From: Campylobacter sp. US33a
Lineage (GTDB): Bacteria; Campylobacterota; Campylobacteria; Campylobacterales; Campylobacteraceae
Assembly: GCF_004378855.1 (NCBI RefSeq)
Contig: NZ_RYYL01000004.1
Span: 1 to 64,000, forward strand
Direction: 5' to 3'
Length of the DNA stretch: 64,000 nucleotides
A program made the translations under genes and the position numbers. Positions within the stretch are counted from its first letter, which is position 1. Every line of letters begins with the position of its first letter. The notes under the pieces were generated by a model. It ran no database searches. It had not been told where the DNA came from and saw nothing but the letters and a program-made list of their open reading frames with translations. Positions 21,813-23,832 of the stretch are shown here, piece after piece.

Positions 21813-22226
21813 ATGAAAAAAATATTTTTAATCTTGGTGTTAAATTCATATTTGTTTTCAAGCGAATTTAATCAAGCTATGCAAGAATACATTAATGAAT
21901 TGAAAAATCAAGCAAAAAGTGAAAATCCTAGTTTTGTTGATTTTGATACTAAGAGAGGTGAAATTATTTTTAGCACTAAAAATAAAGGCAAAAATGGTGA
22001 ATTGATTTCTTGTCAGAGTTGTCATAATGCTGATTTGACAAAGGAAGCTACGAATATTTTTACAAATAAAACCATAGCACCTTTAGCACCAAGTGTAAAT
22101 AAAAACAGACTTAGCGATGTTAAAGAAGTGAAAAAATGGCTTAAAAGAAATTTTAAAGATGTGTATTTGCGTGAAGGAAGCGCGATAGAAAAAGGTGATG
22201 TGCTTTATTATCTTATAAAACAATAA
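21813..22226 (+). CDS. SHP-type monoheme cytochrome c (DUF1924)
   Basis: This 137-residue periplasmic protein has a signal peptide (about 1-17) and one c-type heme site, CQSCH (67-71). The segment APLAPSVNKNRLSD followed by EVKKWLKRNFKDVY and EKGDVLYYL matches the DUF1924 family, whose prototype is the oxygen-binding sphaeroides heme protein SHP. Those proteins bind small ligands at the heme and receive electrons from a diheme cytochrome and a b-type cytochrome, exactly the two genes that follow. The physiological substrate is not fixed by sequence. It is the first gene of a three-gene operon, 9 bp before the next. Confidence 0.8.
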   Translation: MKKIFLILVLNSYLFSSEFNQAMQEYINELKNQAKSENPSFVDFDTKRGEIIFSTKNKGKNGELISCQSCHNADLTKEATNIFTNKTIAPLAPSVNKNRLSDVKEVKKWLKRNFKDVYLREGSAIEKGDVLYYLIKQ

Positions 22227-22235
22227 GGATGGATT

Positions 22236-22748
22236 ATGAAAAAGCTTTTATTTGTTATTTTTGTGTTTGTTGGTATTTTAAATGCGAAAGATTATAATTA
22301 TTATACAACTGATGTGGCTCCTGTAAATAATGATTTGTATAAGAAAGAATGCGCAAGTTGTCATTTTGCTTATCAGCCAGGGCTTTTACCTAGTAGCTCT
22401 TGGCAACACATAATGGATAATTTAGAAAATCATTATGGAAGCGATGCAAGTTTAGATGAAAATGATGCAAGGAAAATTTTGGCATATTTATTGGAAAATT
22501 CGAGCGAAAAATCTAATTATAAAAGAAGCATAAAAATCACTAATTCTCTCCAAAATGGTGTAGTTTATACTTCTTTGACGCAAATTCCTTATTTGCAGAA
22601 AAAACATAGAAAAATTCCAAAACACTTAATAGAGCAAAAAGAAGTGGGATCTTTGGCAAGATGTACCGCATGTCATAAACAAGCAGATAAGGGAATTTAT
22701 AATGATGAAGATGTTTATATACCAAATTATGGAAGAATGAATGACTAA
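22236..22748 (+). CDS. Diheme cytochrome c (DHC type)
   Basis: This 170-residue protein has a signal peptide (about 1-17) and two heme sites, CASCH (39-43) and CTACH (143-147). Between them is the DHC-family core with LPSSSWQHIMDNLENHYG. DHC is the known electron donor to SHP. The start overlaps nothing (9-bp gap) and the end overlaps the cytochrome b gene by 8 bp. Its core is clearly related to the C-terminal domain of that next gene, so the domain has been duplicated within the operon. Confidence 0.85.
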   Translation: MKKLLFVIFVFVGILNAKDYNYYTTDVAPVNNDLYKKECASCHFAYQPGLLPSSSWQHIMDNLENHYGSDASLDENDARKILAYLLENSSEKSNYKRSIKITNSLQNGVVYTSLTQIPYLQKKHRKIPKHLIEQKEVGSLARCTACHKQADKGIYNDEDVYIPNYGRMND

Positions 22749-23832
22749 GAGTTATATTTGGACTTTTGTAAATCGTTTTTTACATGTTTTATTGATTGTT
22801 ACTTTTCTTTTATCGTATTTATTTTCAGATTTTGATAATTTGTTTTATTACCATGCTTTGCTGGGCGTGTTGTTTTTTGCTATTATCGCTTTTCGTATTA
22901 TTTGGGGTTTTGTGGGGACAAAATATTCTTTGTTTAAAGACTTTCAGTTCAAAGGACTTGCCAAATATTTATTTTCTATTTTAGCAATAAAAGAAAAACA
23001 TATAGGACACAATCCAGCTTCAAGTATAGCTATAATATTAATGCTTATTTTGGGAATTTTGATTTTTATCAGCGGAATGTTGGCTTTAGGTGTTGAAGAA
23101 AGAGCGGGATTTTTTGCAAAATTGTATTTTACATATGATGTATTTTCATATATTAAAGATTTGCATGAATTTTTTGTTAATTTTTTTGTATTTGTTGTAG
23201 TGATTCACATTTTAGGTGTTTTGATAGATAAATTTTACAATAAAGCCGATGCTTTAGACTCTATGATACATGGATACAAAAATACAAATATAAACGAAAG
23301 TGTATCTTTGAATATTTTTCAAAAAATATTTTTCGCAAGTTTTTTATTGTTTTTTATTGCCTTGTTTTTCTATCTGCTTTATCCCAAAAATCAAATTATC
23401 GGTATTAAAGATTTAAAATATGATTTTTCCTATATGCAAAACGAAGATTATAGCATTTATCAAAAAGAATGCGGTTCTTGTCATATAGCTTATGTTTCTT
23501 ATTTATTACCCAAAAAAGCGTGGAATAATATCATGAATAATTTGGAAAATCATTTTGGAGATGATGCTAGTTTGGACGAGATGGATAGAAAAGCGATTTT
23601 GTCTTTTTTGGAAAAGAATTCAATGGAAGAATTTAATACCAAATTTAAAGCGAATTTAAAAAATGAAAATGTAAATGAGATAGCTATAACAAATTATAAT
23701 TTTTATAAAAGAACACACCGCAAAATACCAGAGGAAGTTTTTCACTCGACAAAAGTGAAAAGTAGGGCAAATTGTCAAAATTGTCATCAATTCGCCCAAG
23801 AAGGATTTTTTTCAAAAAGTCAGATTATTTAA
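22741..23832 (+). CDS. Cytochrome b561-family membrane protein fused to a diheme cytochrome domain
   Basis: The 363-residue protein has an N-terminal di-heme b561 module (membrane segments within about 8-165) with candidate heme b ligands H15, H38, H142 and H156. A further membrane segment (about 192-214) leads to a periplasmic domain with two c-heme sites, CGSCH (244-248) and CQNCH (345-349). That domain parallels the separate diheme cytochrome: LPKKAWNNIMNNLENHFG against LPSSSWQHIMDNLENHYG. It would take electrons from menaquinol and pass them to DHC and SHP. The fusion is unusual. Its end overlaps the convergent terC by 8 bp. Confidence 0.82.
   Translation: MTKSYIWTFVNRFLHVLLIVTFLLSYLFSDFDNLFYYHALLGVLFFAIIAFRIIWGFVGTKYSLFKDFQFKGLAKYLFSILAIKEKHIGHNPASSIAIILMLILGILIFISGMLALGVEERAGFFAKLYFTYDVFSYIKDLHEFFVNFFVFVVVIHILGVLIDKFYNKADALDSMIHGYKNTNINESVSLNIFQKIFFASFLLFFIALFFYLLYPKNQIIGIKDLKYDFSYMQNEDYSIYQKECGSCHIAYVSYLLPKKAWNNIMNNLENHFGDDASLDEMDRKAILSFLEKNSMEEFNTKFKANLKNENVNEIAITNYNFYKRTHRKIPEEVFHSTKVKSRANCQNCHQFAQEGFFSKSQII

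Follow-up and report, generated by a model that had tools for sequence, protein, structure and literature searches.

An SHP operon of the Campylobacterota type with a cytochrome b-diheme cytochrome c fusion in Campylobacter sp. US33a, and a candidate programmed +1 frameshift in the fusion gene of its relatives

A stretch of 64,000 nucleotides from Campylobacter sp. US33a (contig NZ_RYYL01000004.1, positions 1 to 64,000; hereafter the window) carries at 21813-23832 an operon for Sphaeroides heme protein (SHP, DUF1924), a free periplasmic diheme cytochrome c (sDHC), and a membrane cytochrome b fused to a second diheme domain (CytB/mDHC). With a probability of roughly 0.75, we read it as an SHP operon of the kind usual in Campylobacterota, in which electrons from quinol would run from CytB through mDHC and sDHC to SHP; its role is probably to deliver membrane electrons to an oxygen-binding cytochrome. 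This analysis showed the identity of the domains, the conservation of the heme ligands, the structure of the operon, and its conservation across the phylum. In Arcobacteraceae-type relatives, the fusion gene is a strong candidate for programmed +1 frameshifting. An earlier sequence-only reading had placed an operon for SHP, DHC, and a b-type cytochrome at these positions, and three open reading frames (ORFs) with the expected Pfam matches were found there.

The fusion gene lies at 22741..23832 on the forward strand and encodes 363 residues. The membrane part of the protein (residues 7-178) matched PF01292 (Ni_hydr_CYTB; cytochrome b561) with an E value of 3.5e-17, while the C-terminal part (residues 240-357) matched PF09626 with 4.5e-32 and 111.9 bits, against a cut-off of 22.2. 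The mDHC domain, delimited at 23458..23811 (+) by the PF09626 match in the genome search and by alignment with sDHC, contains the two heme motifs that the sequence-only reading had picked out, CGSCH (residues 244-248, 23470-23484) and CQNCH (residues 345-349, 23773-23787), and its reading frame is intact in the window, with no +1 shift as in the Arcobacteraceae-type relatives. The free sDHC (22236..22748, +, 170 residues) belongs to the same Pfam family (3.5e-37, 128.4 bits, cut-off 22.2) and has the heme motifs CASCH (22350-22364) and CTACH (22662-22676). It matched the solved DHCs of Shewanella baltica (3u99, 3.6e-28) and Rhodobacter sphaeroides (2fw5, 2.6e-22), and the fused domain matched the DHCs of both species as well. 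When sDHC was aligned with the fusion, 38% identity was found over 147 residues (E 1e-34) with both CXXCH motifs conserved, which bears out the proposed parallel between the two domains. The C-terminal domain of the fusion is a true DHC and not a member of another cytochrome c family. That it might be an unrelated diheme cytochrome c, DHC-like by motif spacing only, is hardly credible; this idea has nothing in its favour beyond the generic CXXCH motifs, and it is refuted by the Pfam match, the alignment with sDHC, and the best PDB matches, which in both the sequence and the fold search are DHCs.

PF01292 and PF09626 were both present in all 13 fused proteins aligned. All 13 share His15, 38, 90, 142, and 156 in the membrane part; in the DHC part, His271, His326, and the two CXXCH motifs are likewise invariant. 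His271, within NLENHFG, and His326 are candidate sixth ligands of heme 1 and heme 2, respectively. An AlphaFold2 model of the fusion, with a mean pLDDT of 73 from 13 sequences and a DHC half too weak for heme distances, placed five long helices at residues 9-28, 32-58, 95-120, 138-165, and 192-213. The hydropathy peaks agree with these helices, the fifth transmembrane helix being 192-213. In a Foldseek search with the model, DHC structures came out best and FdnI and HyaC next, none reaching an E value of 0.001; the predicted fold similarity to FdnI and HyaC is therefore taken as supporting evidence only. FdnI and HyaC are the cytochrome b subunits of formate dehydrogenase N and hydrogenase 1, and cytochromes of such type usually have a cytoplasmic N-terminus. 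Given this usual orientation and a fifth helix, the DHC domain would therefore lie in the periplasm.

SHP is encoded at 21813..22226 (+, 137 residues) and matched PF09086 with an E value of 4.7e-31 and 107.4 bits (cut-off 22.5). It has an N-terminal signal sequence, judged by eye, and a single heme motif, CQSCH (residues 67-71, 22011-22025). Against the solved structure 1dw0 (5.9e-15), Asn113 (22149-22151) aligned with Asn88, the sixth heme ligand of Rb. sphaeroides SHP; WLKRNF of the window protein stands over WLGRNC, and Trp109 is the counterpart of W84. Both Asn113 and Trp109 were invariant among 12 SHP homologues. The two cysteines of the C89-C97 disulfide that follows the sixth ligand are replaced in the window SHP (by Phe114 and Gly). 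As of 2010, this disulfide was present in all but four SHP homologues, and three epsilon-class SHPs were reported without it (PMC2909971), so the disulfide is not strictly defining for SHP.

The SHP and sDHC genes are 9 bp apart and the ORFs of sDHC and the fusion overlap by 8 bp, and the three genes therefore likely share a single transcript. A promoter and terminator scan gave no more sites than in shuffled sequence, and no regulator gene lies within the operon. A second genome of the species also encodes all three, with 98.8-99.7% protein identity, which shows that the operon is not an assembly artefact.

Quinol would be oxidised by the membrane CytB, which is predicted to hold two b-hemes. 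The fifth transmembrane helix would bring the C-terminus of CytB to the periplasm, where the fused mDHC could accept the electrons, and soluble sDHC would pass them on to SHP. The Asn-ligated heme of SHP would open when reduced and then bind O2, NO, or a similar small ligand, and the likely end reaction would be that of an O2-dependent oxygenase or NO detoxification. Quinol as donor, the order of the carriers, and the end reaction in this organism are what we infer. The same chain was already proposed by Meyer, Kyndt & Cusanovich in 2010 (PMC2909971), and the path from quinol through cytochrome b and four c-hemes to SHP given in the sequence-only reading matches their proposal. In Rb. sphaeroides, sDHC reduces SHP, and SHP binds O2 and has a reported NO dioxygenase activity (as cited in PMC2909971).

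Three points weigh against this assignment. In the literature, no biochemistry was found for any Campylobacterota member of the SHP operon proteins. In Rb. sphaeroides SHP, a disulfide holds the ligand-switching loop; the window SHP is without it, and its ligand chemistry may differ. Finally, six surveyed genomes (G053, G122, G166, G239, G251, and G264) have the fused CytB/mDHC but no SHP; SHP is therefore not the sole possible partner, and other acceptors are possible. These six genomes would also suit a CytB/mDHC that acts as a general donor from quinol to the periplasm, supplying peroxidases or other cytochromes, with SHP as one client or as a ligand sensor instead of an enzyme, and so would the report that SHP binds many ligands and that its substrate is not known (PMC2909971). 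We consider such a general role unlikely, since the chimera was found in every SHP genome surveyed and the window genes lie 9 bp apart or overlap.

The survey covered 298 Campylobacterota genomes, and SHP was found in 58 of them. All 58 encode the CytB/mDHC chimera: as a single frame of about 349-412 residues in 51 genomes, with a +1 shift in 6, and interrupted in 1. In the last of these (G056, Sulfurospirillum-type, of the same genus as S. diekertiae), CytB/mDHC is broken within the CytB part (L075:5936-7046), unlike in its congeners. The named carriers of the fusion include Helicobacter rodentium, H. brantae, Sulfurovum, Sulfurimonas, Sulfuricurvum, Sulfurospirillum, Aliarcobacter, and Poseidonibacter. 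The chimera is thus the standard form that the SHP operon takes in Campylobacterota. Among 43 DHC domains placed in a tree, the mDHCs of Campylobacterota formed a group separate from the sDHCs (90/46, not strong). The window mDHC joined two enterohepatic-type Helicobacter lines and one Campylobacter-type genome (96/92). This grouping fits one old fusion event within the phylum. Meyer et al. favoured multiple origins of the chimera (PMC2909971).

The sequence-only reading had regarded the operon as a distinctive module, and this did not hold. The CytB/mDHC chimera was described in 2010 in SHP operons of Rhodobacter, Rhodoferax, Campylobacter fetus, Arcobacter, Sulfurospirillum, and Wolinella, and the architecture, taxa, and mechanism that the sequence-only reading had named are all contained in that paper (PMC2909971), so none of them is novel. 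A literature search on Campylobacter and DUF1924 returned no papers. Whether the fusion is standard for all DHC-linked cytochromes b, the possibility that the sequence-only reading had itself raised, has a divided answer: it is so within Campylobacterota but not across Proteobacteria. In Caballeronia and Paraburkholderia, the gene order SHP-DHC-CytB is that of the window, whereas CytB (242 residues) stops after the membrane part without a second DHC domain, and a response regulator and kinase lie downstream.

The SHP operons of C. fetus, A. butzleri, and W. succinogenes resemble that of the window in having the same proteins, with SHP ahead of CytB/mDHC, and an SHP without the C89-C97 disulfide. 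They differ from it in several respects: those of C. fetus and A. butzleri include a sensor kinase and response regulator, which the window operon is without; that of W. succinogenes has no sDHC (PMC2909971); and the window operon includes sDHC and has tRNAs and terC as its flanks. The three proteins are also those of Rb. sphaeroides and Ruegeria, where the second diheme domain is fused as well and the order is CytB/mDHC-SHP-sDHC (PMC2909971; observed here also for Ruegeria), compared with SHP-sDHC-CytB/mDHC in the window. The Rb. sphaeroides-type SHP has the disulfide (PMC2909971), whereas the window SHP does not, and the Ruegeria mDHC, which has a long branch, falls outside the group of Campylobacterota mDHCs.

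In several genomes of one family, taken as Arcobacteraceae (members Aliarcobacter, Arcobacter, and Poseidonibacter), CytB ends 9 residues past the first heme motif and the rest of mDHC continues in the +1 frame. A family-wide search with direct reading found the shift in 28 genes, across 8 genera, and an in-frame gene in 18 cases (shift sites L072:7420-7470, L073:6863-6913, and L074:7136-7186, and those of 25 further Arcobacteraceae-type genomes). The shifted genes read TGY CAY ACT CTN TAT CCC WCC, and 27 of the 28 have a zero-frame stop five codons past WCC, while the in-frame genes, one base shorter here, read TAT CCT/CCA CCN with rare exceptions. ACT, TAT, and CCC each occurred in 28/28 shifted genes, compared with 8/18, 15/18, and 0/18 in-frame genes; Fisher p values were 1e-5 for ACT and 4e-13 for CCC, uncorrected for kinship and for groups defined by the shift itself. 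The motif ACTCTNTATCCCWCC occurred once per genome in the 28 shifted genomes, at the CytB/mDHC gene, and nowhere else among 104 genomes, and the reversed-motif control gave 0 occurrences. CCC made up 12 of 227 proline codons in three sampled regions.

Sequencing errors and pseudogenes were both considered as the cause and rejected: the shift recurs at one position in 28 genomes from 8 genera, many of these genomes consisting of a single contig, and selection on the shifted frame equals that on intact homologues. Downstream of the shift, pN/pS was 0.369 for shifted genes and 0.366 for in-frame ones; reading the shifted genes in the zero frame gave 2.7. On the tree, 9 changes between shifted and unshifted states were needed, a pattern that an old shift with several later repairs would fit. 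No common RNA stem was seen by eye downstream of the shift, and the predicted folds vary between genomes.

By analogy with known sites, the ribosome may slip +1 at CCC through weakly pairing tRNA-Pro(UGG), a tRNA that pairs weakly with CCC and is naturally shift-prone there (PMC4519876). The site in the relatives, CCC_UCC or CCC_ACC, belongs to the same class as the one in Listeria phage PSA, for which a recoding review describes a +1 shift at CCC_UCC; ~5% of proline codons in the phage host are CCC (PMC5009743). These sequence patterns make the shift a strong candidate for programmed +1 recoding at the CCC codon, and we hold it probable that in this branch, with its 8 genera and about 9 changes, the rest of mDHC is reached only by a programmed +1 shift at CCC-W. 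No mention of the CytB/mDHC gene was found in the text of the GeneTack survey, in the portions consulted of the recoding review (PMC5009743) and the A. butzleri genome paper, or in a literature search on Arcobacter and programmed ribosomal frameshifts. On this partial coverage of the literature, the frameshift is likely, though not proven, to be new.

Within the genus, the full operon was found in 4 of 49 genomes (two of the window species, G276, and G302). In the window, it lies exactly between a five-tRNA cluster (Leu-Arg-Arg-His-Pro, 21135..21576, -, by ARAGORN) and terC, the whole region spanning 21135-24691. The cluster ends in tRNA-Pro(UGG) (21499-21576, -, by ARAGORN), the left border of the insertion site. 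The convergent right neighbour terC (23825..24691, -), outside the operon, encodes a TerC family membrane protein (PF03741, 7.4e-48), and its ORF overlaps that of the fusion by 8 bp. In relatives G192 and G136 (loci L095 and L098), the same tRNA cluster directly adjoins terC; the site is empty there, and a gain of the operon at this tRNA-flanked site is therefore likely and the simpler reading, differential loss in the relatives being less simple. In another relative of the genus, G161, a lone CytB remnant of 252 residues (L124:3163-3921), ~71% identical to the window CytB, stands without mDHC, SHP, or sDHC, and the operon has decayed there. This remnant, the scarcity of the full operon, and the empty site could together speak for a recent gain of no weighty function that is now being lost from the window species; we regard this as very improbable, since the frames are all open, no heme ligand has been lost, and the second genome of the species preserves the proteins at 98.8-99.7% identity. 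Beyond the tRNA cluster lies a gene for a DUF411 exported protein with a CGCC motif (PF04214, 5.1e-23; 20542-20988, -).

For the window, these results settle the annotation: the DUF1924 protein, the diheme cytochrome, and the 'cytochrome b' form one electron-transfer unit that is absent from most of the genus. For the relatives, annotation pipelines may label a working respiratory gene as a pseudogene or as two genes. The textbook case of bacterial cellular +1 recoding is prfB. If the frameshift is true, a further bacterial cellular gene, that of a respiratory cytochrome, would depend on +1 recoding, in the relatives only and not in the window copy, and a +1 shift conserved across a bacterial family would join the few cellular +1 recoding sites on record in bacteria.
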